Source of the DNA: Candidatus Latescibacterota bacterium | GTDB taxonomy: Bacteria; JAAXHH01; JACQVL01 | DNA length: 10,022 nt | Direction: 5' to 3' | NCBI GenBank assembly: GCA_016209865.1 | Contig: JACQVL010000226.1 | Span: forward strand, 1-10,022 | In this document: piece by piece, positions 1-10,022 of the stretch | Numbering within the stretch: position 1 is the stretch's first letter | Layout of the letters: each line of letters starts with the position of its first letter | Program-made: the position numbers and the translations under genes | The notes under the pieces: generated by a model | The model's input: only the letters and a program-made list of their open reading frames with translations | Database searches by the model: none | Told to the model about the DNA's origin: nothing

Positions 1-839
1 CCAAATTCCTGTTTCAGTTCCACCCGGTCCATGCCGGGACAGGTCCACTGCACCGGGTTGAGGATATCGATTCCCATCTCCACTAAATCGGGCAGGAACG
101 CGCGGATGCTGCCGTCATCGTGATGGAACACCTTGATGCCGAATTCGTGGCAGAGGTCGATGAACCGCCGGTGATAGGGCGCGTAGAACTCGTGGTAGAC
201 CTCAAGACTGATGAGCGGGCCGGTCTGACCGCCTAAGTCGTCCGTCACCTGCGCCACGTCGATCAGCCCGTCACAGGCTTCGAACATCCGCCGGTGGTGG
301 TTGTACATGAACTCGCAGAGGCGATGGAGGAGGTGATGGGTGAAGGCCGGGTTTTCCAGGAGATCGATCAACGAGGCTTCGAGACCGCGGAGCTTGTTGT
401 GCATGAAAAAGGGGACCATATACCCGCATTGCACGACGTGGGTCTTGCGGAGGTCTGCGGCCGTCGCTCGCATCTGCGAATAATCGAACCAGTCGGACTG
501 AGGCCAGGGGTAGGCGTCCAGATCGTCGATCGTCGTGGCGGCGGCTAAGGGATAGAACCACTGTTCATGGTAAACCCCGCCTTCATACGCCATCGGCTTG
601 AGGCGCATCCCCCACATATCGACGATCTCGCCGTCGGGGACTTGAGGCAGGGGAGGGCCGGTATAGACAGGACCGACGCTCGCCATGCCGTCGATGTGTA
701 AGCACCGGTAGACGGCTTCCCGTGACCCGAAGTGCCTGTCGAGGGCATCCCAGACTTCAGGGGTCGCCCAGATGTCGGTCGGGACGCGATCCAGCGGCTG
801 GCGGTTGATGGCTGCCAGCATCCGTTCTCGTGAGGTCAT
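1..839 (-). CDS. URO-D-like (MtaA/CmuA-type fold) protein, 3' end outside window
   Basis: I translated 279 residues; the C-terminus lies beyond position 1. The start (MTSRERMLAAINR) fits the uroporphyrinogen decarboxylase superfamily, as do the segments DDLGGQTGPLIS (about residues 201-212), FHHDDGSI (238-245) and GIDILNPVQ (near 256-264). The HemE-type RQAGRYMPEY N-terminal motif is absent, so this is not a heme-pathway decarboxylase. In corrinoid methyltransferases of this fold (MtaA type) an H-x-C-G motif supplies zinc ligands; here the place reads H240-D-D242-G, so the Cys is Asp. The ATG overlaps the stop of the upstream dehydrogenase as ATGA (836-839), which implies translational coupling. 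It is the last operon gene visible. Family assignment is firm. Substrate and reaction are unknown; a C1 or small-molecule transfer or decarboxylation is only a family-level guess. Confidence 0.85.
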   Translation of the reverse strand, partial: MTSRERMLAAINRQPLDRVPTDIWATPEVWDALDRHFGSREAVYRCLHIDGMASVGPVYTGPPLPQVPDGEIVDMWGMRLKPMAYEGGVYHEQWFYPLAAATTIDDLDAYPWPQSDWFDYSQMRATAADLRKTHVVQCGYMVPFFMHNKLRGLEASLIDLLENPAFTHHLLHRLCEFMYNHHRRMFEACDGLIDVAQVTDDLGGQTGPLISLEVYHEFYAPYHRRFIDLCHEFGIKVFHHDDGSIRAFLPDLVEMGIDILNPVQWTCPGMDRVELKQEF

Positions 840-1864
840 GGCATCCCTATCTGCAGCACCAGACGGCCTAAGACCTTACCGTCGCGCAACCGGGCGAGCG
901 CTTCGTTGGCCTGGTCGAACGGATACAGATCAGTGACGATCGATTTCGTCTTCCCCTCCGCCACCAGTCGCACGACGTCGATCAGGTCCTGCTTCCGGCC
1001 GCATCGCGTCCCGATGATCTCCAACTCGCTCTGCGCTAAAGACTTGCCGTTGAGCGGATACGTGTCGGGGGTGTAGCCGACGACGACGAGCCGCCCGCCG
1101 GGACAGAGCGCGTCCATGCCCGCGGCCAGGGTGGCCTCTTTGCCCACGATGTCGATCACGCAGTCCGCGCCCCATCCGCCGGTGAGCTGCCCGACCGACG
1201 CCGCCACATCCTGCGCGCTCGCGTTGATGGCGACGTCCGCGCCGAGGTCGACCGCCCGGGCGGTCTTCTCCTCCGTCTGATCGACGGCGATGACGCGGCC
1301 GCCCGACAGCCTGGCGAACTGGACGGCGAACGACCCGACGCCGCCCACCCCGACGATGACCACCGTCTCACCCAGCGTCAGTCGGGCACGGTCAACCGCA
1401 TGGAACGCGGTGATCCCGGCGTCGCAGAGTACCGCCGCGTCCGGCCACGGAATCCCCTCCGGGAGCCGGACGACCTGCCGGGCGGGAATCTTGAGGAATT
1501 CCGCATACCCGCCCGGCACATCGCGAACGCCTAAGACACCGGCCATCTGGGGACACAACTGTTCCCGCCCGGTCAGACAGAGGGGGCACGCGCCGCACGT
1601 GAAGAAATTATAGGTGATCACCCGATCGCCCGGTTGGACGGACGTCACCGCACTCCCCACCTGGCGCACGACCCCGGCGGGTTCGTGTCCCATGATGAAC
1701 GGCAACTCCGGGGTATAGCCAAACCCGTCGAGCAGCTTCAGGTCGGTCCCGTCGATGCCGCACGTCATCACCTGGACGAGGGCGTCGTCCGGGCCGATGC
1801 TGGGGTCGGGCGCGTCCTCGATGACGAGCGGCTTCCCGAATGCCGTGAGCACGGCCGCTTTCAT
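836..1864 (-). CDS. Zinc-dependent medium-chain alcohol/polyol dehydrogenase
   Basis: A 342-residue cytosolic medium-chain dehydrogenase/reductase, normal in length. Catalytic zinc ligands fit C35 (in CGIDGTD), H60-E61 (GHE) and C147 or D148. The structural zinc loop is complete: C90, C93, C96 and C104. The Rossmann motif GVGGVG covers 172-177, and D195 at the end of the second beta strand points to NAD rather than NADP. The enzyme should oxidise a secondary alcohol or polyol to a ketone (or the reverse). The closest well-known relatives would be sorbitol- or threonine-dehydrogenase-like enzymes, but the substrate cannot be read from sequence. The ATG at 1864 has AAGGAG about 9 bases upstream, overlapping the end of the BKACE gene. 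It lies 13 bp after that gene and overlaps the URO-D-like gene by 4 bp, so it is the third gene of the operon. Confidence 0.93.
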   Translation of the reverse strand: MKAAVLTAFGKPLVIEDAPDPSIGPDDALVQVMTCGIDGTDLKLLDGFGYTPELPFIMGHEPAGVVRQVGSAVTSVQPGDRVITYNFFTCGACPLCLTGREQLCPQMAGVLGVRDVPGGYAEFLKIPARQVVRLPEGIPWPDAAVLCDAGITAFHAVDRARLTLGETVVIVGVGGVGSFAVQFARLSGGRVIAVDQTEEKTARAVDLGADVAINASAQDVAASVGQLTGGWGADCVIDIVGKEATLAAGMDALCPGGRLVVVGYTPDTYPLNGKSLAQSELEIIGTRCGRKQDLIDVVRLVAEGKTKSIVTDLYPFDQANEALARLRDGKVLGRLVLQIGMP

Positions 1865-1877
1865 GGCGTGCCTCTCC

Positions 1878-2759
1878 TTACATCAGGCCGATGATCGCGC
1901 GGGCTTCGTCCGGCGTGGCGATGTCGCGGCCGAGCTCACGGCTGATGCGCACGATCTTCTCGACGAGCTGGGCGTTGCTCGTCGCGTACCCGCCGGGCGA
2001 CAGGTACGGGTTGTCCTCCATCCCCACGCGCACGTGGCCGCCTAACAGAATGGCCATCGTCAGGATGTGCCAGTGCATCGGCGGGTCCATCACCGACGTG
2101 TTGAAGATGAACCCGTCCGGCTGGTGATCGTACATGTACTGGATCCCCTTGAGGGTCGGAGGCGTCCAGTTCCCGCCGCGCCATCCCAAGAACTGCGTCG
2201 CCCACACCGGCGTGTTCAACAAGCCCGCCTGGATCAACCGCTGGGCGTTCCAGACCCCGCCGAACTGGAAATTCTCGACCTCCGGCTTGATCCCGTGCTC
2301 CAGGGTAAACCGGCCGTACTCGGCTAATTCGTTGCGATCATGGATGGCATACAGGTCGATGGCCGGGTGCCGGGGTTCGTCGTAGTTGAAACACTCGTCG
2401 TGCGGATGGAAGCAGACGGACACCATGTCCGGTTCCTGTTCCAGGAGGACGAGTCGCTGCTGGAAGGGGGCGTGCGCGTAGCCGTACTGGATGATCGGCC
2501 TGGTCGAGCATCGGTCGACGATCCTCTGCCGCATCGTCAGCCAGCCGGAAACGTCGAGGTCGACCTCCTGGGCGCCGCCTTCGGCGAACGAGCCCCGTGG
2601 CTTGAACGGGCCGTGGATATGGCAGATCGACGCGCCCGCGCTGACGCTGCGGACGTACTCGTCCACCACAGTCTCCATCCCCTTCGGGGTCGGGTTGTGC
2701 GGGTTGAGGGGATAGGAGATGGTGCTGTCGCAGGTGATGGTGATGATGAGCTTGTCCAT
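1878..2759 (-). CDS. BKACE (DUF849) beta-keto acid cleavage enzyme, diverged
   Basis: This 293-residue protein matches the beta-keto acid cleavage enzymes. These zinc TIM-barrel enzymes condense a beta-keto acid with acetyl-CoA and release acetoacetate plus a new acyl-CoA. The C-terminal signature is intact: RVGMEDNPYL (244-253) followed by SNAQLVEKIVRISRELGR and TPDEARAI. R244, E248 and D249 keep the spacing I recall for the Kce residues Arg226, Glu230 (zinc) and Asp231. The zinc histidines fit H47 and H49 (CHIHGP). Two parts differ from the family as I remember it: the usual H-x-H-x-R-D is HIHGPF, and the N-terminal glutamate expected near residue 14 is not evident. The ATG at 2759 has a GGAG site 8-9 bases upstream. 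It is second in the operon, 15 bp after the isomerase-like gene. The family call is strong; the exact substrate is unknown and activity may be altered. Confidence 0.88.
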   Translation of the reverse strand: MDKLIITITCDSTISYPLNPHNPTPKGMETVVDEYVRSVSAGASICHIHGPFKPRGSFAEGGAQEVDLDVSGWLTMRQRIVDRCSTRPIIQYGYAHAPFQQRLVLLEQEPDMVSVCFHPHDECFNYDEPRHPAIDLYAIHDRNELAEYGRFTLEHGIKPEVENFQFGGVWNAQRLIQAGLLNTPVWATQFLGWRGGNWTPPTLKGIQYMYDHQPDGFIFNTSVMDPPMHWHILTMAILLGGHVRVGMEDNPYLSPGGYATSNAQLVEKIVRISRELGRDIATPDEARAIIGLM

Positions 2760-2774
2760 CGAGTTGTGCTCCTT

Positions 2775-3593
2775 TCAGTGAATTCCTAATTCATCCATCA
2801 CGCGCCGCAGGTACGGGACACCGATCCGTGAGCCTTCGATGGGGAAGGGGTACAGCCACAGGTCGAGCATGCAGGTGCCGTGGAACCCGATCGCCTTCAG
2901 GGCGCGGACGATGCCCGGCAGGTCGAGGCAGCCGGCGCCCGGGGCGAAGTGCAATTCTGAACTGTGCCGATCGCTATCGGAGAAATGAATATGCTGGATG
3001 CGGCGCCCGAGGGCGTGGACAGCCTCGATGTAGCCCTCCGGCAGACCGACGCCGAAATGGCAGCAATCGTAGGTGACGCTGAACCATTCCGGGTCTAACC
3101 GGTCGCAGAGCGTGACGAGGAACGCCGTATCGATCCCCATCGTGAACGGGTGGACTTCGACGGACAGATGGACGCCGTGCTGCCGGGCGTAGGGGATGGC
3201 GTCCTGGAACAGCCGCGTCGTCGCGTCCAGCGCCCAGCCGTGGATCTCCTCACGTGAGGCGCCCGGCGGCGGCCTGCCCTCCCAGGCTAAGAGGTGGGGA
3301 ACGCCCAACGCGGCGGCGGTGTCGATGTCCTGCTTCAGTCCCTCCAGGACGCGGGGCCAGTCATCCGGATGGGCCAGTGGGGTAAAGTAGTCAGCGGCGG
3401 CGGTGTTGTAGCGGATCAGGGTCAGGCCGAAGGAACGAACGGACTCATTGAACTGTCGCTTGAGGACGCTCGTCTTGCACGCCTGAATGTCAGGCAGGCA
3501 GACCTCGATCCCTTCATACCCTAACGTCTTCATGCGTTCGAGCGCATCCTCGATCGGGAGTTGCCGGAGCATCATCGGGTTGCCGATCAGCAT
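2775..3593 (-). CDS. Xylose-isomerase-like TIM-barrel (sugar phosphate isomerase/epimerase family)
   Basis: This 272-residue protein belongs to the AP-endonuclease-2/xylose-isomerase-like TIM-barrel family, which includes inosose dehydratase, hydroxypyruvate isomerase and ketose epimerases. Divalent-metal ligand positions fit E146 (SVEVHPF), D176 (with H179 nearby, YDCCHFG), H203 (HIHFSD) and D244 (MLDLW). The last is usually Glu, so an Asp there is a mild deviation. The N-terminus IGNPMMLRQLPIEDAL and the strand GYEGIEVCL are typical of the family. It is the first gene of the minus-strand catabolic operon. The ATG at 3593 is preceded by GGAGG with 4-5 bases of spacing. Likely role: isomerisation, epimerisation or dehydration of a sugar-like or keto-polyol intermediate feeding the BKACE and dehydrogenase steps. 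The specific reaction cannot be told from the sequence. Confidence 0.9.
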   Translation of the reverse strand: MLIGNPMMLRQLPIEDALERMKTLGYEGIEVCLPDIQACKTSVLKRQFNESVRSFGLTLIRYNTAAADYFTPLAHPDDWPRVLEGLKQDIDTAAALGVPHLLAWEGRPPPGASREEIHGWALDATTRLFQDAIPYARQHGVHLSVEVHPFTMGIDTAFLVTLCDRLDPEWFSVTYDCCHFGVGLPEGYIEAVHALGRRIQHIHFSDSDRHSSELHFAPGAGCLDLPGIVRALKAIGFHGTCMLDLWLYPFPIEGSRIGVPYLRRVMDELGIH

Positions 3594-3636
3594 AGGCCCT
3601 CCGTGTTACGGGGGAATGAATCGTCTCAGCCTTGCA

Positions 3637-3709
3637 CCTCACCCCTACGCCCCAGCCCCTTCCCCTCTCCGCCTGCGGAGAGGGGAAGGGGAGCGGGGAT
3701 GAGGTGAGG
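3637..3709. repeat. REP-like palindromic element with 17-bp perfect stem
   Basis: The element is bounded by CCTCAC (3637-3642) and its complement GTGAGG (3704-3709). Its core is a perfect 17-bp stem (3656-3672 with 3675-3691) around a 2-base centre. The outer arms pair imperfectly. Elements of the type CCTCACCCC...CCCCTCTCC...GGAGAGGGG...GTGAGG are scattered between genes in many GC-rich bacteria, so this is probably a dispersed REP or MITE-like repeat rather than a unique regulatory site. It would lie in the 5' leader of the catabolic operon if the 3783-3811 promoter is used, and could fold strongly in that RNA. Confidence 0.8.
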
Positions 3710-3931: not shown

Positions 3932-5152
3932 GTGGACAGAATTCGGTTAGCGCTCGTCGGCTGTGGGGGAATGGCGAAAGCGCATCTGGATGCGTACCAG
4001 ACGCTCCGGCAACGCGGGGTGGCCTGGTTTGAGATCGTAGCCGTCTGCGACCCGGTTGAGGGCAGCGCACGGGCGTTCGCCCGACAGACCGGGGAGTTTC
4101 AGGAGACGCCTGCGACGGTCTACACCGACCTCGACGCGATGCTGGCGCGGGAGAGGTTGCATTGTATCGATACGGCGTCCCCCCATTACCTGCACCACAC
4201 GATCGCCATCGCGTGCATGGAAGCGGGACTGGATGTCATGGTGGAAAAGCCGTTAGGGGTGACGATGAAAGCCGCCCGGCTGATGTGTGCCTGTGCGGAG
4301 CGCACGAAGCGTATCCTGGCGACAGCGGAACAGGTGCGGCGCTGGCTGGGACCGCGTGCGGTCAAGTGGGCGCTCGACCAGGGCCTTATCGGGAGACCAC
4401 AGTTTTTCTTCATGCACAGCAGCGGGGGAGTATCGACGCGATCGCCCGACGCGACGGAGCCGGTGGGGACGTTCACGTGGCGGCATGACAAACTCACCGG
4501 GGGCGGCGGCGGAGTGTTCGACGCGGGCGTCCACCATGCCGACCTCCTGCTCTATCTCTTCGGCGAGGTTGAGGCTGTCTACGCGTTCACGGGGACCGTC
4601 AACCCGGTCCCGCTGCGCAAGCCGGACGGCAGCCTGACGGTCGCCACGATTGAAGACACGACCGTCGCCCATCTGACCTTTGCCAACGGGGTCGTCGGGA
4701 CGTGGACCTGGCCGGGCAGCCGGGGACACCGCATCAGCTACCTCGTCTATTATGGCTCACACGGGTCGATTTTCTCGGAGCAGGGCTATCCTCTCATGCC
4801 CCGTCTCGAACGGTGGAACGGGGAGGTCATCGAGCCTGACAACCTGAAACGGATGTACATCGACTCGTTGGATGCGGAGACCCGAGAGCGGTTGTTTCCA
4901 CGCGTCGTCGTCGAAGACCCGGTGACGGCCGAGGGGGATTACGGCGTGGCGCTCGAATGCTATGACTATCTCTGCGCCGTCCGTGACCGTCGCCCGCCAG
5001 AGCTGGACGGATGGGCTGGGCTTCGGGCGCAGGCGATTCCCGAAGGCTTCTTCGAGTCGTCACACCTCCGGCAGGCCGTCCGGATCGAGGACGTGGTGAA
5101 CGGAACGGTGGACGGCTATCAGCGCGAGATCAACGAACGGTTGGGACTGTAG
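3932..5152 (+). CDS. Gfo/Idh/MocA family NAD(P)-dependent oxidoreductase
   Basis: I place the start at GTG 3932 because GGAGG at 3921-3925 precedes it by 6 bases and the protein then begins MDRIRLALVGCGGMAKAH. The longer open frame from 3632, or from ATG 3902, would translate promoter and repeat DNA. The 406-residue product has the N-terminal Rossmann motif GCGGMA (10-15), an acidic D40 at the end of the second strand, the EKP motif (E105-K106-P107) with the conserved catalytic lysine, and the C-terminal-domain motif DAGVHHADLLLYLFG (197-211). The family oxidises or reduces sugars, inositols and related cyclic polyols in the cytosol. It is divergent from the catabolic operon and may act in the same pathway. 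Its 3' end overlaps the convergent ABC gene by 23 bp. The substrate is unknown. Confidence 0.92.
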   Translation: MDRIRLALVGCGGMAKAHLDAYQTLRQRGVAWFEIVAVCDPVEGSARAFARQTGEFQETPATVYTDLDAMLARERLHCIDTASPHYLHHTIAIACMEAGLDVMVEKPLGVTMKAARLMCACAERTKRILATAEQVRRWLGPRAVKWALDQGLIGRPQFFFMHSSGGVSTRSPDATEPVGTFTWRHDKLTGGGGGVFDAGVHHADLLLYLFGEVEAVYAFTGTVNPVPLRKPDGSLTVATIEDTTVAHLTFANGVVGTWTWPGSRGHRISYLVYYGSHGSIFSEQGYPLMPRLERWNGEVIEPDNLKRMYIDSLDAETRERLFPRVVVEDPVTAEGDYGVALECYDYLCAVRDRRPPELDGWAGLRAQAIPEGFFESSHLRQAVRIEDVVNGTVDGYQREINERLGL

Positions 5153-6929
5153 TCTCCTTTTCTCGGTCGCTATACTGGAGTTGGTGAAGCCGGCGGTAGA
5201 TGCCGTCTTTCGCTAACAGTTCTTCGTGCCGGCCGATCTCGCGCACCTCGCCTTTATGCATCACGATGATCGTATCCGCATTGCGGATCGTCGAGAGTCG
5301 ATGGGCGATGATGATCGAAGTCCGGGTCTGCATGAGCCGTTCCACGGCGTCCTGAATCCAGAGTTCGGTTTCAGTATCCACACTGGCAGTCGCTTCGTCC
5401 AGGACGAGGATGTCGGGGTCAAACGCTAACGCCCGGGCGAAGGCGAGCAACTGGCGTTGTCCCGAGGACAGGGTGCTGCCCCGTTCGGTCAGGGTGTGCT
5501 GGTAGCCATCCGGCAGGCGCTGGATAAACCGGTCGGCGTTGACGTCCTGCGCGGCCTGTTCCACCCGCTCCTGTGAAATCCCCTGATTGCCCAGCCGGAT
5601 GTTCTCCTCGATATTCCCCGAGAAAAGAAAAACATCCTGCTGCACGATCCCGATGCGGCGACGCAGTCCTTCCACGTTCCATTCCCGAATGTCGATCCCA
5701 TCGACGAGAATCGCCCCTTTCTGGATGTCGTAAAACCGGGCAAGCAGGCTGATCGTGGTGGTCTTGCCCGAGCCGGTCGCCCCAACTAACGCCACGCTCT
5801 CGCCCGGGGTGATGTGGAAGGAAACGTCTCGGAGCACCCATTCTTCCCCTTTGTACGCGAACCAGACGTTCCGGAATTCGATCTCGCCCGTTGCCCGTTG
5901 TGGAGCCACATTTCCGCCTTCCGGTTCCGGTTTGGTATCCAGCAGTTCGAAAATACGTTCTGAGGACGCCATCGCCGTCTGGAGAATCGCATACCGTTCC
6001 GCGATGTCCAGAATCGGCCAGAAGAACCGCGGAATGTACTGGAGCATGGCGATCAAGATGCCCCAATCGATCCGGGATCGCACGACCTCCCCGCTGCCGT
6101 ACCAGATCGCCAGCGCCATGACGACGGCTCCGATCAATTCCATGATGGGATAGAAGAAGGAATTGTACAGCGCCGACAGCAGATTGGCTTCCACATATCG
6201 GCTGTTGACGGCGTCGAATTGTTCGGTATGGCGGCGCTCACGGTTGAAGAGCTGCACGACGTCCATCCCGGTGATGTTCTCTTGCAAGAACGCATTGAGC
6301 CGGGCCAGCCGGGTGCGCGCGAGGCGGAAGGCGCGCAGCATCCGGCTTTGAAACCAGAACGTGACCCCGAACATCACCGGGACGGCTGCACAGGTCACCA
6401 GCGCCAGGTCGGTGTCCAGGTAGAACATGTACACGATGATGGCGATGACCGTAAAGAGATCGCTGAACGAAGCGACGATGCCGTCGGTGAACAATTCGTT
6501 CAACGCGTCGACGTCGTTCGTGTTGCGTGTCATCAGCCGGCCGATGGGAGTCCGGTCGAAGAAGGCCAATGGCAGGCGCTGGAGGTGCGCAAAAATCTCG
6601 GCGCGGACGTCGTACATCGCCCACTGGCCGGTGAGCTGGGTGATGAACCGCTCGCCATAGCTGGTGAGGAACTGGAGGAGCAGCAGGCCCACGAAGAGGA
6701 GGACGATCCGGTTCAATCCCTGGAAATTGCCCTTCAGGATGTAGGTATCGACGGCGATCTTCGTCAGGTACGGGCCGGCCTGGCTGATGATCGAGGTCAG
6801 GAGAATCAGCGCAAACGCGAGCGCGACCCACCCGATGTAGGGCTTCAGGTAGCCGAGCAGACGCACCATCAGCCGGGCATCAAACGGCTTTTCTGTGATC
6901 TCTTCTTCGTGGAAATCGGTGTAAGGCAT
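5130..6929 (-). CDS. ABC exporter half-transporter, second subunit (MdlB-like, catalytic NBD)
   Basis: This 599-residue protein is a transmembrane domain (about 25-325, several hydrophobic segments) fused to a nucleotide-binding domain (about 348-585). ATP motifs are Walker A GATGSGKT (383-390), Q-loop Q430/Q431, signature LSSGQ (487-491), Walker B ILVLDE with catalytic E512, D-loop SVD and H-loop H543. The signature has Ser in place of the first Gly of LSGGQ. With the neighbour's Asp Walker B, this is the expected partition of a heterodimeric exporter such as MdlA/MdlB, YheI/YheH or TM287/TM288. It would sit in the inner membrane and export a lipid, peptide or hydrophobic compound; the substrate cannot be read. 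It follows the first subunit after 52 bp. No clear Shine-Dalgarno precedes its ATG at 6929. The last 23 bp overlap the convergent oxidoreductase gene. Confidence 0.95.
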   Translation of the reverse strand: MPYTDFHEEEITEKPFDARLMVRLLGYLKPYIGWVALAFALILLTSIISQAGPYLTKIAVDTYILKGNFQGLNRIVLLFVGLLLLQFLTSYGERFITQLTGQWAMYDVRAEIFAHLQRLPLAFFDRTPIGRLMTRNTNDVDALNELFTDGIVASFSDLFTVIAIIVYMFYLDTDLALVTCAAVPVMFGVTFWFQSRMLRAFRLARTRLARLNAFLQENITGMDVVQLFNRERRHTEQFDAVNSRYVEANLLSALYNSFFYPIMELIGAVVMALAIWYGSGEVVRSRIDWGILIAMLQYIPRFFWPILDIAERYAILQTAMASSERIFELLDTKPEPEGGNVAPQRATGEIEFRNVWFAYKGEEWVLRDVSFHITPGESVALVGATGSGKTTTISLLARFYDIQKGAILVDGIDIREWNVEGLRRRIGIVQQDVFLFSGNIEENIRLGNQGISQERVEQAAQDVNADRFIQRLPDGYQHTLTERGSTLSSGQRQLLAFARALAFDPDILVLDEATASVDTETELWIQDAVERLMQTRTSIIIAHRLSTIRNADTIIVMHKGEVREIGRHEELLAKDGIYRRLHQLQYSDREKETTVPTVR

Positions 6930-8956: not shown

Positions 8957-9814
8957 CTATTCCGATGGGGAGGCGGGAGTCTCTAATCGACGCAGCTTGC
9001 GCTCCCACCCATACTTTTGGCTCCCCGTTAAGAGCGCTCGATGGTCTTCGGCGATGTCTTCCACGAATACAGGATCGGGGTCATAGCCGTTCCACGCCTG
9101 AAACATCGTCGGGGTGTATCCGGCGATAATCAAAACGCGATCCTTGTTGGATCGAATGATACCCGATGAGTGCATCAACGATTCAAAAAACAGTAGAGTC
9201 GAACCCGCCGGTGCCGCCACTTCGTGGATGATGCGGGGATCGTCGAGGGCCGCCTTAACGATCGCATTCCTATCCACGTCTTCTGAGATCTTATGAGTAC
9301 CGGCAATCACCGTCGTCCCGCCGTCTCCCGGCTCTAAATCCGTCAAATTCGTCAGCGTCTTGACGAACGTGAAATGGTACAGCCCATTTTTGATGTAACT
9401 GAATCCGGGGTTGATCCCTCTGTGGAATCCATAGCTTTCTGGCTCGGTCTGATGCTTGACGGGCCGGCGGATGTGGGCATCCGATTGTTCCAGACGGACG
9501 GTGCCTCCCACGATCTCCTCTGCCATACCCACCAGGCGCGGATGGGTCACATACTCGAAGAAGCACAGATCGATGTGGGGCAAATTATCGATGCGGAAGA
9601 AGTCTTCCTTCGTACTGGAAAAATGGGAGCAGGCAGCCGGTAGCGCACCGGTTTCTCGGTAGACCCGCTCGATCTTGTAGATTGTATCGAGCAGTTTGTC
9701 GACTTCAGCCTTGCTCAGGACGTTTTCGATGACGACATACCCATTGATGTCCAGGTACAAGCGTTGCGCGGGGGTTAATGCGGGAAAGGGCTTGATCGAA
9801 ACGGTCTGACTCAT
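8957..9814 (-). CDS. PhyH (phytanoyl-CoA dioxygenase) family protein with HxG instead of HxD
   Basis: I chose ATG 9814 (285 residues) because AGGAGG (9819-9824) lies 4 bases upstream; a TTG at 9829 would put that site inside the gene. The family fits Fe(II)/2-oxoglutarate dioxygenases of the PhyH group: an N-terminal FPALTPAQ...DINGYVVIENVLS, the block PGDGGTTVIAGTHK (162-175), the distal histidine H215 (SLMHSSG) and R226, which fits the 2-oxoglutarate-binding Arg. H215 and R226 are 11 apart, as in human PAHX (H264, R275). The proximal motif, H-x-D in active hydroxylases, is H131-R-G133, so the carboxylate iron ligand is missing. The gene is lower in GC than its neighbours and uses codons such as AGA and TTA. 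It follows a Gfo/Idh/MocA gene by 18 bp. Candidates are a halogenase-like enzyme, a variant oxygenase or a non-catalytic homologue. Confidence 0.88.
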   Translation of the reverse strand: MSQTVSIKPFPALTPAQRLYLDINGYVVIENVLSKAEVDKLLDTIYKIERVYRETGALPAACSHFSSTKEDFFRIDNLPHIDLCFFEYVTHPRLVGMAEEIVGGTVRLEQSDAHIRRPVKHQTEPESYGFHRGINPGFSYIKNGLYHFTFVKTLTNLTDLEPGDGGTTVIAGTHKISEDVDRNAIVKAALDDPRIIHEVAAPAGSTLLFFESLMHSSGIIRSNKDRVLIIAGYTPTMFQAWNGYDPDPVFVEDIAEDHRALLTGSQKYGWERKLRRLETPASPSE

Positions 9815-9832: not shown

Positions 9833-10022
9833 TTACCTCGTGCGTCCGCTCCCGACCAGACCTTGCTCCAGCATCGTCAACAGGGCGGAGTCATCGACAT
9901 CGAGCGGGAGGGTGATCTTCGCGCGGCGCCGGCTCGACTCGTACGTGGCGAAGATGAGTTCCGTCGCCTGCAGCGCCTTTCGTCCGCTGAGCACCGGCTC
10001 GCGTCCGGTCTTCAGGCACTCG
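9833..10022 (-). CDS. Gfo/Idh/MocA family oxidoreductase, C-terminal fragment
   Basis: Only the last 62 codons are inside the window, ending at TAA (9835-9833). The peptide reads CLKTGREPVLSGRKALQATE followed by LIFATYESSRRR and a short tail beginning AKITLPLD. The TGREP..SGR.AL.A.E.IFA.YESSR pattern is the usual end of Gfo/Idh/MocA sugar or inositol dehydrogenases, where this segment packs on the C-terminal beta-sheet domain. The Rossmann domain and catalytic lysine lie beyond the right edge. It is immediately upstream of, and probably co-transcribed with, the PhyH gene (18-bp gap carrying AGGAGG). Its base composition is GC-rich, unlike the PhyH gene that follows. Confidence 0.85.
   Translation of the reverse strand, partial: ECLKTGREPVLSGRKALQATELIFATYESSRRRAKITLPLDVDDSALLTMLEQGLVGSGRTR

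Follow-up and report, generated by a model that had tools for sequence, protein, structure and literature searches.

A HygX-clade PhyH oxygenase in which Gly has replaced the iron-binding Asp, with a candidate substitute carboxylate four residues before the distal His

The window, which is the whole stretch of 10,022 nucleotides analysed here and makes up a complete contig of a metagenome-assembled Candidatus Latescibacterota genome, carried genes for a URO-D-like protein, a zinc alcohol dehydrogenase, a BKACE protein, a xylose-isomerase-like protein (AP_endonuc_2) and two ABC exporters on its minus strand, and a gene for a Gfo/Idh/MocA oxidoreductase on its plus strand. The first four of these genes lay consecutively at 3-3593 (-) and are likely to form a small-molecule catabolic cluster. 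The gene under study was located at 8957..9814 (-), including the stop codon, and encoded a protein of 285 aa. According to the Pfam, PDB and Foldseek matches and the tree, this protein was a PhyH-family Fe(II)/2-oxoglutarate (2OG) oxygenase of the HygX clade. Its only Pfam match was PF05721 (E 1e-16), with a score of 62.3 bits against a gathering cut-off of 22. Directly upstream of this gene, at 9839-10021 (-), a C-terminal fragment of 61 aa resembled the end of a Gfo/Idh/MocA protein and had no Pfam match.

The active-site residues named in the earlier note, H131-R-G133, H215 and R226, were all present in the translated 285-aa ORF. The proximal iron His and the Gly replacing the canonical Asp were found in H131-R132-G133 (9416..9424, minus strand), which was encoded by the codons CAC AGA GGG at 9424..9416. 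The distal iron His was H215 (9170..9172, minus strand), and R226 (9137..9139, minus strand) corresponds to the Arg that anchors 2OG in PhyH enzymes; both were invariant in two alignments. The distance from H215 to R226 was 11 residues, which agrees with the PAHX-like spacing proposed earlier, as the corresponding residues of human PAHX are H264 and R275. The protein thus had H131-R-G133...H215 and lacked the canonical 2-His-1-carboxylate motif H-x-D...H. This motif is usual for PhyH proteins but does not define them, since HygX and the members of TIGR01762 are also without it. Four residues before the distal His, we found E211 (9182..9184, minus strand), which is the candidate for a replacement carboxylate.

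The His-x-Gly motif was conserved among the relatives of the window protein. Sixteen related loci were drawn from public genome contigs, and all of the 15 close ones (45-75% identity) had His-x-Gly except L011, which had His-x-Thr. When the comparison was widened to 53 family members, position 133 was Gly in 52 and Thr in one, with no H-x-D among them, so the conservation of H-x-G across the subfamily, for which a homologue search had been proposed, was borne out; H215, R226 and E211 were each present in 53/53. Moreover, GGG differs from the Asp codons at two positions, and G133 can thus not have arisen from an error at one base. A private mutation or a sequencing error was therefore ruled out by the Gly in 52/53 family members together with the two codon changes needed. 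The window's own genome (3.75 Mb) contained 77 PhyH matches, and 74 of these proteins kept both His residues, comprising 63 with H-x-D and 11 without, which indicated that H-x-G is a minority state in this genome. Three of the PhyH proteins of the genome (L037:30-809, L102:277-1170 and L103:324-857) carried H-x-K, with His replacing the 2OG Arg, or H-x-H, and had no acid four residues before the distal His; they are possibly inactive or possess a different metal site. Outside this genome, the family profile matched at 1e-20 or better in 73 of the 84 genomes of one other phylum, where the weaker matches may represent sister subfamilies. These results supported the suspected existence of a large H-x-G subgroup of PhyH proteins, and the window protein is a member of this widespread, HygX-related group of oxygenases. 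The 77 matches represent an expansion of the PhyH family, which was also seen in two genomes of another phylum, with more than 150 matches in each.

The sequence searches linked the window protein to HygX (PDB 4XC9, 4XCA, 4XCB and 4ZPI), which is the hygromycin B oxygenase from Streptomyces hygroscopicus. According to the titles of its PDB entries, there is an iron-bound structure as well as a complex containing nickel, 2OG and hygromycin B. With the single sequence, HygX chains were the only convincing PDB matches (1.8e-9, compared with 0.79 for PAHX). With the family profile, PAHX ranked first and HygX second, and SyrB2 and CytC3 were placed far lower. The AlphaFold2 model had a mean pLDDT of 82 and a pTM of 0.83, with low confidence at about 121-150, the metal loop, and values below 50 at 136-147. 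The top Foldseek match of this model was HygX with nickel, 2OG and hygromycin B (1.2e-14). With a second structural aligner, the scores of many PhyH enzymes lay close together (Z about 22-23), so that the fold by itself gives no basis for preferring one of them; halogenases were absent among the matches listed by this aligner, an absence that carries no evidential weight.

HygX shared with the window protein the PhyH fold, H-x-G in place of H-x-D, the Glu four residues before the distal His and the same clade in the tree, although the identity in the structural alignment was only about 22%. The motif context also differed, being HRG in a short loop in the window family and LHGG followed by an insert in HygX. 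Human PAHX (2A1X) likewise had the PhyH fold, and its two His residues and its 2OG Arg were spaced as in the window protein, but it contained H-x-D and had Pro at the position of E211. Variation in metal coordination is reportedly mentioned in the abstract of the HygX structure paper, so the idea developed here for E211 may already be described there.

To place the protein, we built trees without the motif columns; they came from quick searches and had many long branches, and their deep order was not settled. Among 149 non-redundant sequences, HygX, the window family and other paralogues formed a clade of 18 rows with an SH-aLRT of 95. The third motif residue of the paralogues in this clade was G, A, N, H and, once, D, and position 133 varied among G/A/T/N/H/D across the H-x-G clade as a whole. 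In a second tree with halogenases added, the window protein fell into a group of 16 rows with HygX (SH-aLRT 99); L001_1027 was placed less firmly in this second tree. Five members of TIGR01762, the chlorinating-enzyme model, were taken from other genomes and formed a clade of their own (SH-aLRT 100), distant from the HygX clade. On these trees, the separation of the two clades indicated that the Asp was lost in separate events. The TIGR01762 family (SyrB2/CytC3 type) resembled the window protein in its PhyH fold and its loss of the Asp of H-x-D; however, the five proteins had H-Q-A or H-Q-V as the iron motif and Ser or Ala four residues before the distal His. Two of the TIGR01762 members, L232 and L233, scored above the curated cut-off and carried H-Q-V rather than H-x-A/G.

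A scan of all acidic residues for conservation in the clade singled out E211, and no other column of the protein separated the clade as well from the H-x-D paralogues (0.94 vs 0.01). In every clade member, the fourth residue before the distal His was Glu or, once, Asp, and the contexts were F-F-E-S-L-M-H in the window protein and L-N-E-A-L-M-H in HygX. The non-redundant clade rows all had an acid at E211 (18/18), compared with about 2% of the H-x-D rows, but the clade rows had been chosen partly by carrying the acid, so the 18/18 is only descriptive and the count from the window's own genome, 8/11 non-Asp proteins vs 1/63 with H-x-D, is fairer. The same association appeared in 225 sequences with both His residues (65/68 non-Asp vs 3/157 H-x-D) and in the non-redundant set (17/20 vs 3/129); nevertheless, we sought independent origins of the Asp/Glu swap on the tree and found none but a single event, so shared ancestry alone could produce these contingency tables and their Fisher values are not independent evidence. 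One clade row, L016, carried Asp and Glu together, so Glu alone does not force the loss of Asp. This single case fits an order in which the Glu may have come first, leaving the Asp free to drift. With G133 and E211, the window protein carried the HygX-clade signature, consisting of a non-Asp third residue and an acid four residues before the distal His. The Ser of SyrB2 equivalent to E211 presumably lines the chloride pocket, in which case E211 would be next to the vacated ligand site; a literature check on the SyrB2 residue at this position gave nothing useful.

Based on its motif and relatives, we consider it probable (roughly 0.6) that the window protein is an active HygX-clade Fe(II)/2OG oxygenase with E211 as the substitute for the missing Asp, and that it most likely oxidizes a sugar-like C-H bond and does not halogenate. 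H131 and H215 would hold Fe(II), and R226 would anchor 2OG. The task of the Asp lost at G133 would be taken over by E211, either directly as the third ligand or through water, by holding and charge-balancing a water molecule in the vacated site. An Fe(IV)=O would then attack a C-H bond of the substrate, which is the established mechanism of 2OG oxygenases. This 2OG-driven oxidation might hydroxylate or dehydrogenate the substrate or close a ring in it oxidatively, and the most likely substrate would be a small molecule resembling a sugar.

A replacement carboxylate may not be needed, because enzymes of the AspH type work with two His residues. Human AspH, from another 2OG-oxygenase family, is a natural hydroxylase that has H-x-G and binds its metal through two His residues alone, and FIH retains some activity when its Asp is replaced by Gly (PMC10947486). 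With Gly133, the third protein ligand would thus be either E211, directly or via water, or none, as in human AspH. If there were none, water would occupy the vacated site and E211 would be a clade marker with a structural or substrate-binding role. The single origin of the swap is compatible with this explanation, since common ancestry can account for the association of E211 with the loss of Asp, and another column, D22, was clade-specific as well (0.94 vs 0.10). On the other hand, E211 was the top clade-specific column while residue 133 drifted, which suggests that the duty has moved to E211, and we regard a two-His site as rather unlikely. Another carboxylate had also been suggested as a metal ligand, with D113 as the example. 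The idea of a substitute carboxylate was kept, with E211 as a far better candidate, but the residue named was not: position 113 of the window protein is Ala, and the Asp sits at 112 (9479..9481, minus strand). D112 was acidic in 51/53 family members, and the equivalent residue was Glu in sister subfamilies, which would agree with a third ligand confined to the window family. However, the single family row with a readable non-acidic residue had Asn, only 44% of the clade was acidic there, and HygX had no acid, so D112 is a very improbable ligand within the family. As a ligand for the whole clade, it was ruled out by the 44%.

The earlier note had raised the possibility of a halogenase-like enzyme. 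In an Fe(II)/2OG halogenase, Gly133 would make room for a chloride or bromide ion, as is the case in SyrB2, CytC3 or WelO5. This idea was reasonable because G133 is a trait of the halogenase type, a small residue in place of the Asp of H-x-D, and halogenases have Ala or Gly at the third motif position (PMC8407142). Beyond the H-x-G motif itself, the results pointed the other way. The window protein had no match to TIGR01762 in an NCBIfam search at E up to 1, and it stood apart from the distant TIGR01762 clade. Its relatives in the HygX clade had T/N/H/D at the third position, and Glu was fixed at the column occupied by Ser or Ala in the TIGR01762 proteins; an invariant Glu, if near the vacated site, would make binding of an anionic halide less favourable. 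Nor is HygX, which is the nearest relative with a solved structure, described as a halogenase. Furthermore, no NRPS condensation domain was found in the window's own genome, which makes a carrier-bound halogenase substrate unlikely. This point is weakened by halogenases of the WelO5 and BesD types, which act on free small molecules, and it does not bear on free-substrate halogenation. We therefore did not retain the halogenase assignment and consider it the least probable of the explanations discussed here, with hardly any likelihood.

For the preferred assignment as a HygX-type oxygenase, the genes around the window protein and its orthologues were compared with regard to the substrate. HygX itself closes a ring oxidatively on a substrate of the aminoglycoside type. 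It is described as an orthosomycin-type oxygenase that holds its substrate in an orientation suited to abstracting hydrogen from a sugar linkage (PMC8234114). Conserved gene neighbours were sought in about 20 loci and were not found, and because the neighbours differ between orthologues, the substrate class is weakly defined. In the window, the AP_endonuc_2, Gfo/Idh/MocA, BKACE and alcohol dehydrogenase genes encode enzymes of the sugar or small-acid type. We infer from the neighbouring genes and the kinship to HygX that a sugar-like substrate is favoured. In L001, the orthologue was flanked by the gene of an RmlD-like reductase on one side and that of a class-III aminotransferase on the other, and another PhyH gene of the HygX clade was located two genes upstream. 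The two PhyH genes, of the THGG and HRG types (1057-1875 and 2889-3707), thus lay in one cluster with the RmlD-like and aminotransferase genes. In several Latescibacterota-type genomes (L002-L009), the orthologue at about 5100-5880 (-) was divergently arranged beside an H-x-D PhyH gene at 6001-6807 (+). Sulfatase-like sequences, judged by eye from the sequence, were observed near several family members.

When the Asp of H-x-D is missing, the protein is often taken to be a halogenase. Loss of the Asp together with a linked Glu four residues before the distal His would provide a simple sequence rule separating HygX-type oxygenases from chlorinating enzymes, which would be useful for annotating uncultured genomes rich in PhyH proteins. 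More tentatively, the metal site of the HygX clade may have been rewired to H-x-G...E-x3-H, with the carboxylate of the facial triad shifted from the H-x-D loop to four residues before the distal His. We regard such a site as a possible but still doubtful third plan, beside the H-x-D oxygenases and the halogenases without the carboxylate, spread over several phyla of uncultured bacteria. The HygX clade also allows a direct test of whether the carboxylate of a facial triad can shift to a different strand.
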